Source: Rothia aeria
GTDB lineage: Bacteria; Actinomycetota; Actinomycetes; Actinomycetales; Micrococcaceae
Length of the DNA stretch: 64,000 nt
Assembly: GCA_002355935.1 (NCBI GenBank)
Contig: AP017895.1
Coordinates: 1,240,001 to 1,304,000 of the forward strand
Reading direction: 5' to 3'
Shown here piece after piece: positions 2,427-16,344 of the stretch (position 1 is its first letter; the number at the start of each line of letters is the position of its first letter). A program made the translations under genes and the position numbers. Below the pieces are notes generated by a model, which had not been told where the DNA came from, searched no databases, and was given only the letters and a program-made list of their open reading frames with translations.

Positions 2427-2845
2427 GGTCGCTCCCTGATCGTGAGGTTACTGCGAACCCGCCCATAACAGGGGAGAGCGCTATGGCGTGCCCGCATCAT
2501 AATTAACCATCATATCGGTTAGCAGAAGATCTGGTTGAGGCGATTGCATAACCGATAGCGGGGGAATAAGGGGCAAACAGGTGATAAAACATGCGGGCTG
2601 TGTAGCGTTTCTTACCGTTATGTTTCCTGCGGTTAGCGTATCGGTATTCTCAATCAAGCGATACCTTGAACGTATCGACCCTGCCCCACGACAGGCAAAA
2701 CCTGGGAGTATGATTTGAAAATCTTCAGGGGCCAACTGGCAGAGTTCAGAGGGTGCGGTATGCGGCTAAAATATTGTCTAATCACAGACAAACGCCGGGC
2801 GGCATCACCGCGCCCGTGCGCGGTAAATTTCAGCAAGGACGCCCT
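2427..2845. other. Divergent intergenic region, ogt / TPR gene
   Basis: A 419-base gap between divergently transcribed genes. It must hold promoters for both sides. I see no convincing ORF, RNA structure or strong inverted repeat. TAAAAT at about 2765 is a possible -10 element for the rightward gene. Confidence 0.4.
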
Positions 2846-3781
2846 ATGACTACGAATATGAATACTCAACAGCCCGACGACGAACTACAGCACTGGCGTT
2901 CCTCAGTGCAGGACTACATTAGCCGCAAAGATGACATTAACCTGTATATCGCTGCGCAGAACCTGAACCGACTAGCCCCCGCCGATCCGCTCGGGCTGTT
3001 CGGTCTTGCCAAGGCCCAGCGGCACAGAGGGGAGCTTGAGCCCGCCTACTTTAATATCACCCAGGCGCGCCAGCGCTCCGCAGAACCTGTTGAGGGGATG
3101 CTGTTGCTGGAGGCACAGCTCTCCCAGCAGCTCAACCAACATGCTGTCGCCGCAGACCGGTACGCTGAGCTCATTGCTCTTAATCCTCTTGAACCTGGTT
3201 ACGTCACAGCCCGCGCCGAAGCACTCAGACTCAGCGGCCACACCGAAGAAGCCGATAAAGAACTCCGCAAAGGTCGCGATTTCTTTCAATACGACCAGAC
3301 CCTACACGACTCAGGAGTTGAAGCCGCCGTAGCAACCGCAGAAAAAGACGCTATTAATATTAACCAGAAGCCCGCATACCTTACCGCCGAGGCTGCGAAA
3401 AACGCCCTAGAAATACTGCGTAAACCCGAGCCGCTTGAAAGCGTCAGAACTGCCTCAGCCCACCTGCGGGAACGCTACGAGAACCTTCAAACCGCCGCAG
3501 AATATGCGCTCAAGAGGCACTTCGTTTGGCGCGAATGGTGGCAGATGATCATTATCGGCCTGTTCCTGCTCTTCCTCATTCCTTTCGAATATGGTGTGCT
3601 GCATGGGGCAGTGGCAGGTATCCTGGAAACCCCGACCTTTACAGAGATCTTCGGAACGGTATTTGCAGTACTCGTGCTGCTGGGTATCCCGCTACTGCTG
3701 GGGTTTATTTTCTTCTTCCCTAAAGGCTATAAGATTAGCCGCTCAAAAGCCCGTAAGGCGGGGGTTCTTTTGTCACGTTAA
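2846..3781 (+). CDS. TPR protein with two C-terminal membrane helices
   Basis: A 311-residue protein. Residues about 20-150 are helical repeats of TPR type (for example LYIAAQNLNRLAPADPLGLF, then YAELIALNPLEPGYVTARAE). A charged helical linker follows, then two strongly hydrophobic segments (MIIIGLFLLFLIPFEYGVL and VFAVLVLLGIPLLLGFIFFF) and a short basic tail. The ATG at 2846 is chosen because AAGGA lies seven bases upstream; an upstream in-frame start at 2753 lacks one. The TPR-plus-two-helices layout closely resembles the C-terminal half of the J-like protein at 7479-8967, so the two are probably paralogs. It lies just upstream of two Hsp70 genes on the same strand. A role as a membrane-bound partner of that chaperone set is inferred from position and shared architecture only. 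Confidence 0.8.
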   Translation: MTTNMNTQQPDDELQHWRSSVQDYISRKDDINLYIAAQNLNRLAPADPLGLFGLAKAQRHRGELEPAYFNITQARQRSAEPVEGMLLLEAQLSQQLNQHAVAADRYAELIALNPLEPGYVTARAEALRLSGHTEEADKELRKGRDFFQYDQTLHDSGVEAAVATAEKDAININQKPAYLTAEAAKNALEILRKPEPLESVRTASAHLRERYENLQTAAEYALKRHFVWREWWQMIIIGLFLLFLIPFEYGVLHGAVAGILETPTFTEIFGTVFAVLVLLGIPLLLGFIFFFPKGYKISRSKARKAGVLLSR

Positions 3782-4027: not shown

Positions 4028-5585
4028 ATGGGGATCGCTATAGGAATAGATCTGGGGACGACGAACTCTGCGATAGCTGTTGTACGGCCTGATGGAAGAC
4101 CAGAGATCCTTAAGAACCGTGAGGGGGCTGTTACTACCCCCTCTGTTGTCCTCTTTCAAGACTTTGGAGGTGGCGATGAGCCGTTGGTGGGAGAACAAGC
4201 TAAAAGGCAGGCGGGCATAAATCCTACTGACGTTGTGCAGCATGTGAAACGTTATATGGGGATGCTTCGTGGAGGTTCGATTCAGAATCTGGCGCTCAGT
4301 ATAGCCCTGAAGAAGTGTCCGCAATCGTTCTCAAACGGCTCAAAGAAGATGCTGAACTAGCCCTTGGGGCAAGCGTTACTGACGCCGTCATTACAGTTCC
4401 AGCATATTTTGACGACTCACGCCGCATCGCCACAAAACACGCCGGTCAGATCGCTGGGTTGAATGTTTTACGGGTGCTGAACGAGCCAACAGCTGCGGCG
4501 CTATCGTATGGAGTTGAAAATAACTCTGGGGGCATGTGCTTGTCTACGATTTAGGTGGCGGAACTTTCGACGTCACTATTTTGCGTATTGCCGGGGCAGA
4601 GTTTGAAGTGGTTGCTACAGATGGCGATCGTAACTTGGGCGGGTTTGATTTTGACAATGCTCTGATGAACTACCTAAATGATGAGTTGAAAAAACAGGGT
4701 GCTCCTGACAGCTTTGAAGATGTTTCATTAATGGTGCAGCTGCGTGAACAGGCAGAAGATGTGAAAAAATCTCTCTCTACAGTTCCGGCCACGAATGCAT
4801 ATGTAACCATTCACGGCAGGAGCTACCGAGTGCCTGTGAACCGTGGAATATTTGATGCGCAGATTGCTGGGTTATTGCGTCGTACGGAAGAAATTTTGGA
4901 GGACGTCCTGCAAGAGGCACAGCTTACTTGGGCGCATATTGACAAGGTTCTTCTGGTGGGCGGTTCCACCCGTATGCCTGCTGTGCGGCAGATGCTTGAA
5001 AAGGTAACGGGTAAAACCCCAGAGTTAGGGGTTAACCCTGATGAAGCTGTGGCTCTTGGTGCTGCTATACAGGCGGCTCTGGAGTCTGAGCCTGAGGAAG
5101 AAACCATTGGGTTTATCGGTGGGCGTACAGCAGTTGAAGGGCTGTTGGGTGGTCCGGTACGGGTGAAAGACGTAACCTCGCAGGCATTGGGGGCAATAGT
5201 ATTTGAGCATAATACGGATGAGAAGATTAATATAATTATTATTCCCCGTAATTCCGAAGTTCCAGCAAAGCATAGTCGAAAAGTTTGCACACGTTATGAT
5301 TACCAAGAAAGTATTTTGGTTACAGTCACCCAGGGAGATGATGAAGATCCTGAATTTGTGACAATTGTGGGTAAAGGTGTTCTTGACATGCCAATAAAAT
5401 ATCCCAAGGGTGCACCGTTAGAATATATTTATAAGTACGATGTGGATCAGATTATCAATGTTGAAGTTATTGATTTAACTGCCAATATATCCTTAGGAAC
5501 TTTTCAGATTGATCGTGTTGCTAACCTTACCCAGGAGCAGGTGGAAAAAGCGAATTATAAGATTGGAAGTATGATGATTATGTAG
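4028..5585 (+). CDS. Hsp70-family chaperone, lid-less, copy 1 (two frame breaks)
   Basis: A DnaK-like ATPase of about 519 residues, against about 610-640 for housekeeping DnaK. The nucleotide-binding domain is complete: [15 protein letters not shown] (phosphate 1), [40 protein letters not shown] (phosphate 2) and [14 protein letters not shown] (adenosine). A beta-type substrate-binding domain follows, ending soon after [15 protein letters not shown]; the alpha-helical lid and acidic tail are absent. The interdomain linker reads [10 protein letters not shown] where DnaK has VLLLDVTPLSLG. Two breaks, GGGG at 4258-4261 and GGGGG at 4528-4532, are each mended by one G; copy 2 shows the exact expected residues. 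Ribosome binding site GAGAGGGA precedes the ATG. The 3' part is visibly A+T rich. It is not the housekeeping dnaK, which normally sits with grpE, dnaJ and hspR. Confidence 0.88.
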
Positions 5586-5756
5586 GTTGATGTATACAAA
5601 ATATACTTTCTATTGTGTTATAGATATTTTTAGTTCGATCTAAAATAGTTATTACGCTTAGATATAAGCTGTTTATCATGAACTATGGTTCTGCTGTCTG
5701 TGTAGATCCTATGTTCAGCTTATAGAGACGCTGCAATTAGCGGAAAAGGAGCATGT

Positions 5757-7308
5757 ATGGGAATCGCAGTTGGAATTGACCTTGGCACCACGAACTCTGC
5801 GGTGTCAGTGGTACGTCCCACTGGTAAACCGGAAGTCTTGAAGAATAAAGAGGGTGATTCCATCACCCCATCGGTTGTTCTATTCCAATCATTTGGAGGG
5901 CCAGATGAGCCACTGGTGGGGGAGCAGGCTAAACGGCAAGCGGCGGCTTTCCCTGACGATATTGTGCAACACGTAAAACGGTATATGGGGGATCCGTCGT
6001 GGCGGTTTGACTCCTCATCTGGGGCACAGTATTCCGCTGAAGAAGTGTCGGCTATTATCCTCAAGAGGCTGAAAGAGGATGCCGAAATTGCGCTTGGCGA
6101 AGAAGTCACTGATGCTGTGATTACAGTTCCTGCTTATTTTGATGATGCCCGCCGAACCGCTACGAAACAGGCTGGTCAGATTGCCGGGTTAAATGTTTTG
6201 AGGGTTCTGAATGAGCCTACTGCGGCTGCGCTTTCCTATGGTATAGATGCGGATGCCAATGGTACGGTGCTGGTGTACGATCTAGGCGGCGGTACGTTTG
6301 ACGTAACGATTCTAAAATTGCTGGTACCGAATTTGAAGTGATCGCGACTGATGGTGATCGTAACCTAGGCGGATTTGACTTTGATAACGCCCTGATGAGC
6401 TACCTGAATGAGGAACTAAAAAACAGGGCGCACCGGATGCTCTGGAAGATATTGCGCTCATGGCGTCTCTACGCGAAAAGGCAGAGTTTGCCAAGAAAGC
6501 ACTATCCACTGTTCCTAAGACGAATGTACAGTTTTCAGCGAATGACCAGCACTACCGGGTGCCTTTGACTCGTGAAGAGTTTAATGAGGTTACTCAGTCG
6601 CTTATGGTACGCACCCAGGAATTGGTAGCTGATGTCTTAGAGGCTTCTAAGCTCACGTGGGATGACATTGACAAGGTTCTTCTCGTTGGTGGTTCGACCC
6701 GTATGCCAGCGGTGCGTGAACTTGTTGAGCAGATGTCAGGGAAGAGCCCTGAACTGGATGTTAACCCGGATGAAGCAGTAGCTCTTGGTGCAGCCATTCA
6801 GGCTACTCTGGAAGGGGATATTGAAGTCAGCACTGAACAGGTGGGCTCTAAAGCCACTGTTGAAAGTTTCCTAGGTGGTCCTGTGCATATTAGCGATGTT
6901 ACGTCGCAGGCACTGGGTGTGATTCTCATAGAGGCTGACGGGGTGACCGAGTTCAACCAGGTCATGATTGAACGTAACACGAAAGTACCCGCAAAGACCG
7001 AACTGAAGACAAAGACTGCTTATGATCGGCAGACCGCAGTGCACGTAAAAGTGACCCAAGGGGATGAGCGGGATCCGCAAAATGTCACTATTGTTGGTGA
7101 GGGTCAATTGGAAATCCCTGTTTACCCTAAAGGTTCTCCGTTGCGCGTGAGCTATGAGTATGATGTCGATCAGACTGTTGTTGTTGAAGTGTACGACCTG
7201 ACTGCTAATAAATCACTGGGGACCATTAAGATCGAGCGTGTCGCAAACCTGGGAGAAGGTGAGCTCGGGGAAATGGAGCAGAAGATCGGCGGTATGCAGA
7301 TTAACTAG
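5757..7308 (+). CDS. Hsp70-family chaperone, lid-less, copy 2 (two frame breaks)
   Basis: A tandem paralog of the preceding gene, about 517 residues. It has the same intact nucleotide-binding domain ([56 protein letters not shown]), a linker reading [10 protein letters not shown], and a substrate-binding domain that stops at GGMQIN with no lid. The two copies are near-identical in ATPase motifs and diverge more in the substrate domain and the segment after about residue 380, which suggests different clients. Breaks at AAAA 6314-6317 and the six-A run 6418-6423 are each repaired by one A, and copy 1 supports both repairs. A strong AAGGAG precedes the ATG. It is followed by an inverted repeat and then the J-like gene. 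Confidence 0.88.
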
Positions 7309-7329
7309 ATAGAATCTGCAAAACATTAG

Positions 7330-7386
7330 GTGCCCGAGGTTTATCTTGCAGGAGCAGATTTTAGCTAGCGGGAGCACCTCGGGCAC
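7330..7386. promoter_or_regulatory. Inverted repeat between Hsp70 copy 2 and the J-like gene
   Basis: Perfect 11-base arms, GTGCCCGAGGT (7330-7340) and ACCTCGGGCAC (7376-7386), flank a 35-base loop. It could be a terminator or attenuator after the Hsp70 gene. A TATAAT at 7393-7398 just downstream is a possible -10 box for the J-like gene, though no matching -35 is clear. Confidence 0.5.
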
Positions 7387-7478
7387 ACATTCTATAATAT
7401 CTTGGTTGTATTTTAGGTAGCTGTAATGAAAATATGTTTTTATTTCGGATTGCTACACTAAAGTAGCGGAGGAGAGAT

Positions 7479-8967
7479 ATGGATTTTAACGACTACTATG
7501 ACATCCTTGAAATTGATGATTCGGCAGCGGAATCTGAGATTAAGGTAGCAATCCGTAAAACTCGTTCTCGTTACCGTAACCTAACGGGATCTCCTAATAA
7601 GGATCAAGCACGCAAAGCAGAACATATGATTGACGTGCTTGCTGAGGCAGAGAAGGTTCTCTATGATCCTGCTGCCCGAGCTGACTACGACCAGAAACTT
7701 GCTATTTATCGCACAAAGAAAATCCTAAACAATGATGAGAGGGAAGAGTCTTCCCTATCTGAAGAAGAAATTCGCCGTGAATATGAATTGCGGCTTGAGA
7801 AAGAGTGGCAGCGTCGGGAACGGAAACTCCGTGATGAATACAAGAAACGTAAAGAAGAACGGCACGATGACTCCATAATAGAGGAGGACATTAGTGACGA
7901 CGAATTCCTAGACCGTTATGAAGAGCGTTTAGAACGGGCACGCCAAGAACGAGCTGCACGTGAGGAGCGTGAACGTCAGGAGCGTTTGGAGCGCGAGAGA
8001 CAAGCTCGTGCAGAGCGGGAACGCCTCCACAAACTTGCACAGGAGAAACGTGCCAAGGAAGAAGCTGCGCGCTGGGAGAAACAGGTTACCAGCTATTTAG
8101 AGGATCAAAATCGTGATTATAAAGCTCTTCACTACGCCGCTCAGCAACTTACCTCATATAACTCTCGCAGTGCTATAGGGTGGCAGGCTCTGGCAATGGC
8201 CCAGTATGACCGTGGGGAATTTCCAGCGGCTGCTACATCAATCCGGCAAGCAAAACAGCTTTCGTCAACGCCCAGTGATGATCTGCTTTCCCTAGAAGCA
8301 CTAATAGCCATTAAAAACGGAAACTATACCCAGGCGCTCGCGAATTATCGTCATCTTATTCAAGAGTATCCTGATAATCAAAAGTATATTGCCCAGTATA
8401 TTCAAGCCCTTACCGTCAGTGGAGATCCACAGCATGCTGTTTCTGAAAGTGAGCGGGCTTTAGCTGTCCACCCTAATAGTTCAGAGATAAAGAAGCAATA
8501 TGCTGTATCTCTTATGAGAGAAGCGCAGAGCTATTCTGTGCCATATGATGGATTATTGTATGTTGCTTCGCGGCAGCAGTTAAGAAACGCCCGTAAGGCT
8601 TTTGCAAAGGTACCCAAGCCTCATATGCTGCCTGAAGATATAAGGCCCATATATCATCAAGTGGCGGATCATATGAAGATTGCTACCAAGCGGCGGTGGA
8701 CTGGAAATTTTCGGCTGATGTTCCTGTATTTTTATTTTTGGGTGGGGCAATGGTGTTTATGCCGCTGATGACACTTATGGCTTTAGTAGATTCGATATCA
8801 AAATTTATAGTGATATTTATGGATTTCTGGCTGATATAATCATCGCATTTATTGGAATGGGTATCTCAGTACCTGTGTGGTGGTTATTCTTTTACTGCTT
8901 CTATCAGCCAATGTGGCGTCACAATCGACGATGGCTATCAAGTATAGGAGTTGCTGTGCCGAGGTAA
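7479..8967 (+). CDS. J-like/TPR membrane protein lacking HPD (two frame breaks near the end)
   Basis: A protein of about 496 residues. Residues 1-70 match the J-domain fold (DYYDILEIDDSAAESEI in helix I, DPAARADYDQK at the end of helix III), but the loop that carries the invariant HPD of true J-domains reads YRNLTGS. A highly charged Arg/Glu helical coiled-coil follows (residues about 85-200), then TPR-like repeats (about 205-350), then two membrane helices. The frame breaks at TTTTT 8735-8739 and TTT 8824-8826. One T in each extends the protein through VFMPLMTLMALVDSI and GMGISVPVWWLFFYCFY to a stop at 8967, matching the two-helix tail of the TPR gene at 2846. GGAGGAGA is the ribosome binding site. 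Without HPD it should not stimulate Hsp70 ATPase in the usual way; a tethering or adaptor role is inference. Confidence 0.8.
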
Positions 8968-9062
8968 TTTGCGTATAGAGAGCTAGCAGCTCTCTATACC
9001 CGCCATTGACCTTTAGTATGTATCCGTAGAAATGTATTTATAGTTATAATTTGAGGGAAATA

Positions 9063-9839
9063 ATGTCAGACAATATACCTGAAACCTTGTATACCTCCCA
9101 GCCTGCCCTCCATGCTCGAGAGGGAGAACAAAATACTGAGGATAAAGCGGCAAACACCGATTATCCTCACACTGCGGATGGCTCTACCGCAACCGCTCAG
9201 CCTGTCCCCCAAGAGAACATCCATAGCCAGAGTGTGACTGTTTCAGCGTTCGTTACTCCAGGATTTGAAGAACGTGTGCTTGGAGAACTAGAAGAGTTAC
9301 GTAACCGTTTTACCCATAAGATTGCTGAGGACCGTGCGAAGAATCAGCTGATTGTTTCGGTCCAACAGAGTTTACGTGAGCGTGATGAGACAGCTAGGGG
9401 AGAAGCATACCGCTCTATATTCAAGGAGATCCTCGTCGCCTTGGACCGATTGATCTCTCAAGAACCCTCAGCAGCTCTTACAGAATCAGTGCGGGAAGAA
9501 ATCCTTGACATTCTCGCGCTGCGTGGACTGGAACGCATTGAGGCAAAAGGCCTCTACAACCCCGCAATTCATGAAGTTGCTGGTGTGGTACCTGCTGATG
9601 AGACGCATCCAGCGGGGAGTATCGTATCTGAGGTGAAGGAAGGTTTTATGCTTGCTGACCGAGTGCTCCGCCCTGCTTTGGTAACTGTGGCGCGTGCTGC
9701 TCAAGTTTCTAACGGCGTTCAACCTGAGACTACTTATACCGAACCTTCAGAGAACACCATCGAAGCATCCGGAACATTGCAGCCACATAACCCAACAGCT
9801 GTTCCCCAGGCAGAGCCTAACGAAACGCATCTGTCATAA
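9063..9839 (+). CDS. GrpE-like nucleotide exchange factor
   Basis: A 258-residue protein. The first 70 residues are polar and probably disordered. A long helix follows (EERVLGELEELRNRF onward), then the compact GrpE beta domain with its signature: YNPAIHEVAGVV, HPAGSIVSEVKEGF and ADRVLRPALVTVARA. GrpE dimers open the Hsp70 nucleotide-binding domain to release ADP. The ATG at 9063 is preferred over an upstream TTG because GAGGGA precedes it. The C-terminal 60 residues past the beta domain are again low-complexity, which is unusual. It closes the chaperone island and ends before a bidirectional terminator. It is divergent from housekeeping GrpE, which suggests it serves the two local Hsp70s. 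Confidence 0.82.
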   Translation: MSDNIPETLYTSQPALHAREGEQNTEDKAANTDYPHTADGSTATAQPVPQENIHSQSVTVSAFVTPGFEERVLGELEELRNRFTHKIAEDRAKNQLIVSVQQSLRERDETARGEAYRSIFKEILVALDRLISQEPSAALTESVREEILDILALRGLERIEAKGLYNPAIHEVAGVVPADETHPAGSIVSEVKEGFMLADRVLRPALVTVARAAQVSNGVQPETTYTEPSENTIEASGTLQPHNPTAVPQAEPNETHLS

Positions 9840-15444: not shown

Positions 15445-16344
15445 TTAAGAGTCGAACGCTTCACTCACCGCATACCGCATGGCTTCACGTACCATGGCAA
15501 GGGCGGGGGTTGTGACCGCATCGGCGCGTACCGCGGTAAAAATACTGCGGTAGGGGGCTCCCGGCAGATCCACTACCCGTAACCCTTCAGAGTTGGAGAG
15601 TGAAGCGAGAATAAAGCCGGGCACAATACTGGCGGCAAAACCAGCACGTACCAAGTTCACATTAGTGATCATGTCGTTGGCGCTGTATCGGATCTCGGGT
15701 TCGAACCCGGCGGCTCGGCATTGGTTGACGGCCCACCGGCGGGAGGTATTTTCTTCCCTTTCAAGAACCCACGGGATGTGTCGTGCCTCGTGTAGGGAGC
15801 GGATGGGGGAGTCCGCTGGAACGATGAGGCTCAGAGGGTCTTCAACCAGCAGCTCGGAGTGAAGTTCGGGGTATTCAGGGATGTAATGGTGTGGGTAGGA
15901 TTCGGCGATTACCATGTCGTATTCGCGGCTTCTGGTCATTGAGATGCCGGTTTCCGGATCGATCTGAAGAACCTGCAGCACTAGACGCGGGGCGTGGTCG
16001 TGAAGGTAGGCGAGGGTGCGTGGCAATAAGGCGAATGATGCGGACTGGAAAATTGCTAGACGTACAGTTCCGGCTGGCTCTCCGGCGAGGGTAGCTACGC
16101 TGGTTTGCATGCGGTCTACTTCCCGCAGAATACGTCGGGCTGTTTCGATGACTACTAGCCCGGCGCTGGTAAGCTGCACACGCCTGCCTACGCGTTGGAG
16201 CAGGGCGGTTCCTGCTTCTTTTTCGAGGTTAGTGATCTGCTGGGAGACAGCTGATGGGGTGAGATTAAGTGCATGCGCGGCAGAGATGATGGTGCCTCGC
16301 TCGTGGATTTCAAGGAGCATCTGCATGCGGCGGATGTCGTACAT
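15445..16344 (-). CDS. LysR-family transcriptional regulator
   Basis: A 299-residue LysR-type regulator. It has an N-terminal winged helix-turn-helix (ISAAHALNLTPSAVSQQITN, residues about 20-39) and a periplasmic-binding-like effector domain starting near residue 92 (TVRLAIFQSASFALLPRTLA). It has a GAAGGA ribosome binding site. It is transcribed divergently from putA across a 337-base gap, the classic arrangement for a LysR protein that controls its neighbour. Proline-responsive control of putA is therefore likely but inferred. No frame break is seen. Confidence 0.88.
   Translation of the reverse strand: MYDIRRMQMLLEIHERGTIISAAHALNLTPSAVSQQITNLEKEAGTALLQRVGRRVQLTSAGLVVIETARRILREVDRMQTSVATLAGEPAGTVRLAIFQSASFALLPRTLAYLHDHAPRLVLQVLQIDPETGISMTRSREYDMVIAESYPHHYIPEYPELHSELLVEDPLSLIVPADSPIRSLHEARHIPWVLEREENTSRRWAVNQCRAAGFEPEIRYSANDMITNVNLVRAGFAASIVPGFILASLSNSEGLRVVDLPGAPYRSIFTAVRADAVTTPALAMVREAMRYAVSEAFDS

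Follow-up and report, generated by a model that had tools for sequence, protein, structure and literature searches.

Closest described systems and the Rothia locus

In the Hsp70 cycle as it is generally taught, the HPD motif of the J protein and the helical lid of the Hsp70 are central. The mitochondrial import motor includes a J-like protein devoid of HPD, Pam16/Tim16, which operates at the membrane with Hsp70 and GrpE, and Pam16 pairs with an HPD-bearing partner. We describe here a locus of Rothia, a mouth-type bacterium, in which two Hsp70 genes, a J-like gene, and a gene of the GrpE class follow each other on one strand, as established from the list of open reading frames (ORFs) and a Pfam scan. 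It spans positions 4028-9839 of a 64,000-nucleotide stretch, hereafter called the window, which corresponds to positions 1240001-1304000 of a single-contig genome of 2.59 Mb. Like Pam16/Tim16, its J-like protein lacks HPD, is probably located at the membrane, and is accompanied by Hsp70 and GrpE, a likeness that we take as an analogy from general knowledge, not as homology. The locus has its three gene classes and its ATPase core in common with the housekeeping DnaK-DnaJ-GrpE system, but the housekeeping proteins have the lid and HPD, and their Hsp70 falls into a separate group of the tree. We lean, with a little more confidence than doubt, toward the view that the Rothia locus is a copy of a rare, horizontally moving trio that would encode an Hsp70 machine which is usually tethered to the membrane, has an altered J coupling, and serves dedicated clients.

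Related gene neighborhoods have been reported. In the available part of the survey by Kaur et al. (2020; PMC7159879), Hsp70 and GrpE are found with DnaJ- or TPR-fused FNIII proteins in the neighborhoods of GAP1-N2 GTPases. Common features are the presence of Hsp70, GrpE, and a DnaJ/TPR protein in one neighborhood, the occurrence in Actinobacteria and Firmicutes, a membrane link, and sometimes a second Hsp70-domain gene. As far as that part of the survey goes, the GAP1-N2 theme is distinguished by the fusion of DnaJ/TPR to FNIII repeats, a zinc-ribbon GTPase partner, and a second Hsp70 without a peptide-binding domain, whereas in the trio described here Hsp70 keeps the β substrate-binding domain without the lid, and HPD is lost. 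No GTPase or FNIII-repeat gene recurs among the 16 loci compared, whose stretches are of unequal length (a 5-kb contig for L054) and in which some of the flanking ORFs were scanned for families. Cyanobacterial DnaK1-DnaJ3-GrpE, which goes with type IV pilus motors (PMC9239167, available part), offers an example of an Hsp70 system dedicated to a secretion or motor machine; the lid and HPD do not enter this comparison.

A further relative concerns only some of the loci. A coiled-coil EssC-like ATPase with WXG100 proteins has been reported beside CoCoNuT type III-A systems and may stand alone, and the paper, in its available part, cites Anantharaman et al. (2012) for a stand-alone FtsK/WXG100 operon (PMC11090510). 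It has in common with the longer loci described below an FtsK-family ATPase of approximately 900 residues lacking the EssC-type membrane part, along with small helical-looking proteins; the coiled-coil look of the N-terminus of our ATPases was judged by eye. In contrast, GrpE and DnaJ have no occurrence in the main text of that paper (PMC11090510), and the window trio has no such ATPase gene alongside. None of the CoCoNuT genes recurs among the loci, although no search aimed at them was made.

An earlier reading of the window, made from the letters without databases (the sequence-only reading), knew of no such system. The exact combination of lid-less Hsp70, HPD-less J-like protein, and GrpE was indeed not found in the literature searched, including the available parts of PMC11090510, PMC7159879, and PMC11019930, while Anantharaman et al. 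(2012) may mention Hsp70 genes; neighborhoods of Hsp70, GrpE, and DnaJ fusions as such had, however, been reported with GAP1-N2 GTPases (PMC7159879, available part). The parts are already in print, and what we regard as new is the variant Hsp70 machine, outside the DnaK and HPD-bearing J-protein families.

Conservation and probable mobility of the trio

Each of the 16 loci compared (the window, L022, L053-L064, L070, and L075; L078 is a near-copy of L063) combines Hsp70, J-like, and GrpE genes. The loci come from Actinomycetota and Bacillota, and one is carried by a plasmid. The sequence-only reading had named co-occurrence in other genomes as a test of its proposal, and the trio thus passes it. 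The Hsp70 gene is cut at the contig end in L054, lies in two frames in L064, and is split in the window, and in L058, L059, and L061 the J-like gene is found some genes downstream of the rest of the trio. When all ORFs of at least 60 residues were compared with each other (E-value at most 1e-6), Hsp70 and the J-like protein linked 16 of the 16 loci and GrpE 15, that of L055 being too distant to link, yet matching PF01025. A scan of the genome collection yielded nine loci, all with the trio.

The system is present in 3 of 35 Rothia genomes, 3 of 147 Streptococcus genomes (a draw), and 4 of 396 genomes of the phylum, counts that include the source genomes of the searches. A J-like search of 394 genomes of the class returned five matches, namely the genome of the window, G345, G372, G396, and G595, the matches in the last two (L020, L021) not being counted as loci. 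With a hidden Markov model of the β domain, 360 of the 396 phylum genomes gave a match, mostly to ordinary DnaK; the genome of the window, G915, G796, and G372 scored at least 79.5 bits, and the others among the matches listed at most 58.4. A J match in G110 was discarded as an ordinary dnaK-grpE-dnaJ locus.

On the plasmid of Rhodococcus pseudokoreensis (L075), the genes for Hsp70, the TPR protein, GrpE, and an FtsK/SpoIIIE protein are consecutive, with TnsA-, TniB-, and TniQ-like (Tn7-like) genes and a recombinase nearby, and a recombinase gene lies shortly upstream in L058, L059, and L061. A search of plasmids with the J-like protein of L061 retrieved one of 72,556 records, and a second search gave only the same record; the J-like protein of L056 retrieved no plasmid record, single J-like proteins being queries that find only their closer relatives. 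A phage origin was set aside, as no relative was confirmed in viral contigs (with the Hsp70 alignment) or in phage records (with the L056 J-like protein). The cluster is A+T-richer than its surroundings, as the sequence-only reading had noted, its G+C fraction being 0.472, while the flanks have 0.540 and 0.571. This feature was rejected as evidence of transfer: it holds for the window, more weakly for L056, and not for L070.

The patchy distribution and the nearby recombinases would also fit a switch in biological conflict or defense, in which the Hsp70s assemble or gate a response rather than handle clients, as proposed for the GAP1-N2 neighborhoods, where the same gene classes occur together in Actinobacteria and Firmicutes (PMC7159879, available part). 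A NERD-domain gene after that of GrpE in three Streptococcus loci points the same way. However, in the stretches compared, the only genes shared by unrelated loci are the trio, the ATPase, and some genes of the longer loci, there is no common GTPase or FNIII protein, and none of the six proteins or pieces tested had a PADLOC match, which leaves such a switch rather improbable in our judgment.

Hsp70 proteins without a lid

The full-length lid-less Hsp70s comprise 501-565 residues (11 rows), and their C-terminus lies some 20 residues past the β substrate-binding domain. The helical lid is absent from all 11 when they are aligned with three DnaKs, and the window pieces also end about 20 residues past this domain, in agreement with the sequence-only reading. 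The β domain itself is present, as aligned to DnaK, and the profile reaches approximately residue 488-532 of full-length solved chains. PF00012 was matched by all four window pieces scanned. The residues of the ATP-site motifs, whose roles we presume to be those in DnaK, are invariant in 14 of 14 aligned lid-less proteins. The interdomain linker reads DVTSQ in 10 of 11 and is preceded by an insert of variable length, versus LL[IL]DVTPLS in the three DnaKs; the Hsp70 of L054, outside this alignment, has DVTAL. Loss of an acidic loop as a change accompanying that of HPD was considered and dropped, one canonical DnaK having an equally short loop.

In the Hsp70 tree, one branch parts 17 lid-less rows, two of which are partial window pieces, from 15 DnaKs (12 from the 26 loci L027-L052 and three others), with 100/100 support and in every one of the 200 bootstrap trees counted; the tree does not include L054 and L064. 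Among the families compared, the lid-less Hsp70s are outside the DnaK group. In the drawing, L022 and L060 fall beside the DnaKs; L060 also has an ordinary dnaK. Paralogue groups a and b each hold the window, L056, and L070, and the duplication must therefore predate the three Rothia genomes compared. The presence of two Hsp70s, part of the system as first proposed, is thus a property of the three Rothia loci, whereas the other 13 show one lid-less gene each, that of L054 on a contig of only 5 kb. In G997, the order Hsp70a-J1-Hsp70b-J2-grpE indicates that each Hsp70 can have a J-like partner of its own, while the window and L056 have a single J-like gene. The locus L055 (G372) also contains two fragments of a further Hsp70 at 15527-16153, between two transposase-like genes.

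J-like TPR proteins without HPD and their GrpE partners

The DnaJ domain PF00226 was matched in 15 of 15 J-like proteins (E-value at most 0.01), that of L053 falling under the curated cut-off, and TPR matches were found as well. HPD is complete in none of 17 J-like proteins: three retain H and seven retain PD, never both, and the corresponding columns read SPD, SPN, APD, NPD, NPN, SPS, APS, HPN, or HPE, with a gap in L053. About five residues are inserted ahead of these columns relative to DnaJ, and both canonical DnaJ controls have HPD. The absence of HPD, first noticed in the window protein, accordingly holds across the family. Hydropathy predicts a C-terminal membrane anchor in 12 of 16 J-like proteins, and the open frame of L056 has two hydrophobic helices. 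The two-helix anchor claimed for the window protein is thus found in the relative L056, but an anchor is not universal, and the 429-residue window frame stops before it, with no membrane helix inside. A profile of the J-like proteins retrieved mostly TPR proteins from the PDB.

The GrpE profile was matched in 14 of 14 family members (E-value at most 0.01). In the window protein, the match is confined to residues 79-214 of 262, which bears out the long ends first remarked upon; the gene probably starts with the ATG at 9063, although a TTG at 9051 begins the frame as listed. A scan with the window GrpE as query gave no matches. Over 13 loci (all but L054, L064, and the window), the distances between Hsp70s correlate with those between GrpEs (rho 0.57, with 0 of 2000 permutations as high).

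Longer loci with an EccC-like ATPase

At 7 of the 16 loci (L053, L054, L058, L059, L061, L062, and L075), the cluster includes an FtsK-family gene. One FtsK Pfam domain was found in each of three ATPases tested (L053, L058, L075), the Walker A region, the one ATPase site looked for, is invariant in 7 of 7, and hydropathy shows no membrane segment in four of six and one weak segment in each of two. The closest solved chain to the L058 ATPase is EccC5. In six of the seven loci the ATPase is followed by proteins of approximately 80-90 residues, judged by eye to be helical hairpins; the L054 contig ends before that point. Some of them have low identity to one another, and links at an E-value of 1e-6 are confined to the proteins of L058, L059, L061, and L075. 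The closer ones (about 87 residues) have GG[TS]S in the turn, and there is no WxG. Neither Pfam nor the PDB sequences gave a WXG100 match, and most of the PDB matches were to coiled coils or designed bundles. L058 and L061 also have longer ORFs that begin with a hairpin-like stretch, the one in L061 having a papain-fold toxin domain (PF15644) at its end; Pfam gave no such match for the longer ORFs of L058 and L059. A conserved protein of about 150 residues with no Pfam match is encoded in L058 (11252-11707), L059 (12504-12956), and L062 (9307-9780), with a linked ORF in L061 (11044-11499).

Elsewhere the trio may manage without this partner. Streptococcus infantis SPAR10 has FtsK-family frames of 783, 468, and 607 residues and none of approximately 900, and its trio therefore appears to act without the ATPase. 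The Rothia L056 and Dermabacteraceae L057 genomes carry larger FtsK-family frames elsewhere (1393 and 1367 residues), and in both an ATPase partner might lie away from the locus.

Proposed mode of action

In the mechanism that we favor, Hsp70 would bind and hydrolyze ATP and, without a lid, hold its clients loosely. The J-like protein without HPD would not trigger hydrolysis in the classical manner and might instead serve as a docking platform at a membrane or complex, through its TPRs and a rebuilt J-like face, while GrpE would reset Hsp70. Such a machine would deliver or pull particular client proteins at the membrane. That it is self-contained and specialized in proteostasis, as the sequence-only reading proposed, is an inference. 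Dedicated clients are pointed to by the export-like ATPase that adjoins the trio in 7 of 16 loci; in the longer loci they may be those of the EccC-like ATPase and hairpin-protein module, a candidate for type VII-like export. A more specific proposal, which we offer tentatively and hold to be doubtful, is that lid-less Hsp70, J-like protein with HPD-less coupling, and GrpE form an HPD-independent mobile motor, a membrane-docked client puller for EccC-like export without transmembrane segments, in parallel to the mitochondrial import motor, with other clients, encoded apart from the ATPase, in Rothia and Streptococcus.

Several observations speak against a membrane-tethered machine with altered J coupling and dedicated clients. 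The window and eight other loci have no ATPase gene nearby, the whole genome of the window not having been searched for one. Four of the 16 J-like proteins have no predicted anchor, and the J fold of the whole family is assigned by Pfam and alignment. Distances between J-like proteins show no clear correlation with those of Hsp70 (rho 0.27, 253 of 2000 permutations) or GrpE (0.20, 289 of 2000), and co-evolution of the J-like protein is therefore not shown. The tree program flagged long branches, including those of L055, L053, and L060, and the comparison families were DnaKs, without HscA, HscC, or other Hsp70 families. Finally, an Arg aligned with R167, which we take to be the DnaK residue contacting HPD, is present in 9 of 11 lid-less Hsp70s, and because it is mostly retained a housekeeping HPD protein could still drive them.

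This last point also suits an ordinary supplement to proteostasis, in which the Hsp70s pair with the DnaJ of the cell, leaving the J-like protein no more than a scaffold or brake; the genome does carry housekeeping dnaK and grpE loci, as well as an HPD-containing DnaJ frame. We deem this unlikely, as a GrpE and a J-like protein of its own accompany Hsp70 in 16 of 16 loci, and as these Hsp70s form a distinct group with a different linker. A family that spans two phyla and lacks HPD and lid in every member examined would show how far the Hsp70 cycle can be rebuilt and provides a natural test of the roles of both elements. Its association with an EccC-like ATPase in 7 of 16 loci hints that bacteria may use Hsp70 to assist protein export.

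Frame splits in the Rothia assembly

The proposal of a complete four-gene Hsp70 cycle stands insofar as all classes are present on the same strand and conserved, but in this assembly neither Hsp70 gene is intact, nor is the J-like gene at its membrane end. The frames of Hsp70-1 (4028-4261, 4258-4542, 4530-5582) and Hsp70-2 (5757-6320, 6317-6409, 6418-7305) cover nearly the whole of each protein. The locus might thus consist of decaying pseudogenes in this strain. However, comparison with G242 shows the same kind of split in 6 of 28 distinct conserved genes within the first 54 kb of the window (from 32 rows with at least 60% identity, four of which repeat a gene because the stretches overlapped), and the housekeeping grpE of the genome that holds the window is also spread over frames, which makes assembly error the simplest reading of the splits. 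Two Hsp70-2 pieces, the only ones of the locus for which synonymous divergence could be estimated, show nonsynonymous and synonymous rates of 0.06-0.13 and 1.8-3.3 against L056b, the latter near saturation, and Hsp70-2 is apparently under strong purifying selection. In L056, another Rothia, both Hsp70s, the J-like gene, and grpE are all open frames. The cluster lies next to glpK in both genomes, but in L056 grpE and glpK have one extra ORF between them. Decay is accordingly very unlikely. Splits in 6 of 28 genes across positions 1-54000 suggest an assembly with many small errors.

Features of the locus and neighboring genes

Table 1. Coordinates of the features in the window
Positions	Strand	Feature	Basis
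2753..3781	+	TPR and two-helix membrane protein without J domain; possible associate, not core	two hydrophobic segments
4028..5585	+	Hsp70-1 (paralogue a), lid-less, in three frames	PF00012; third piece groups with L056a and L070a
5757..7308	+	Hsp70-2 (paralogue b), lid-less, in three frames	PF00012; last piece groups with L056b and L070b
7479..8768	+	J-like TPR protein, 429-residue open frame stopping before the membrane segment	DnaJ and TPR Pfam matches
7491..7691	+	J-like domain, residues 5-71	PF00226, 31.7 bits against a cut-off of 27.8
7590..7598	+	SPN in place of HPD (residues 38-40)	alignment with two canonical DnaJ proteins
8732..8921	+	hydrophobic stretches matching the membrane helices of relatives, in frames other than the J-like ORF	three-frame hydropathy
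9063..9839	+	GrpE-like nucleotide exchange factor	PF01025, 62.8 bits (cut-off 25.8)

The TPR-membrane protein upstream of the cluster is 31% identical to the J-like protein over 127 residues, that is, in its TPR half. A match in G242 turned out to be this protein and was discarded. In G242, of the same genus, its homologue lies at the same site (L017, 8385-9362), and there is no lid-less Hsp70 match. Among genes flanking the trio elsewhere, a NERD-domain gene is found directly 3′ of grpE in L063 (12284-13096), L064, and L078, all of Streptococcus. In L059, a protein kinase gene (458-2692) precedes the recombinase and Hsp70 genes, and in L022 (G345) a gene at 6755-8122, divergent from that of Hsp70, encodes a trypsin-like domain with a weak zinc-ribbon match.

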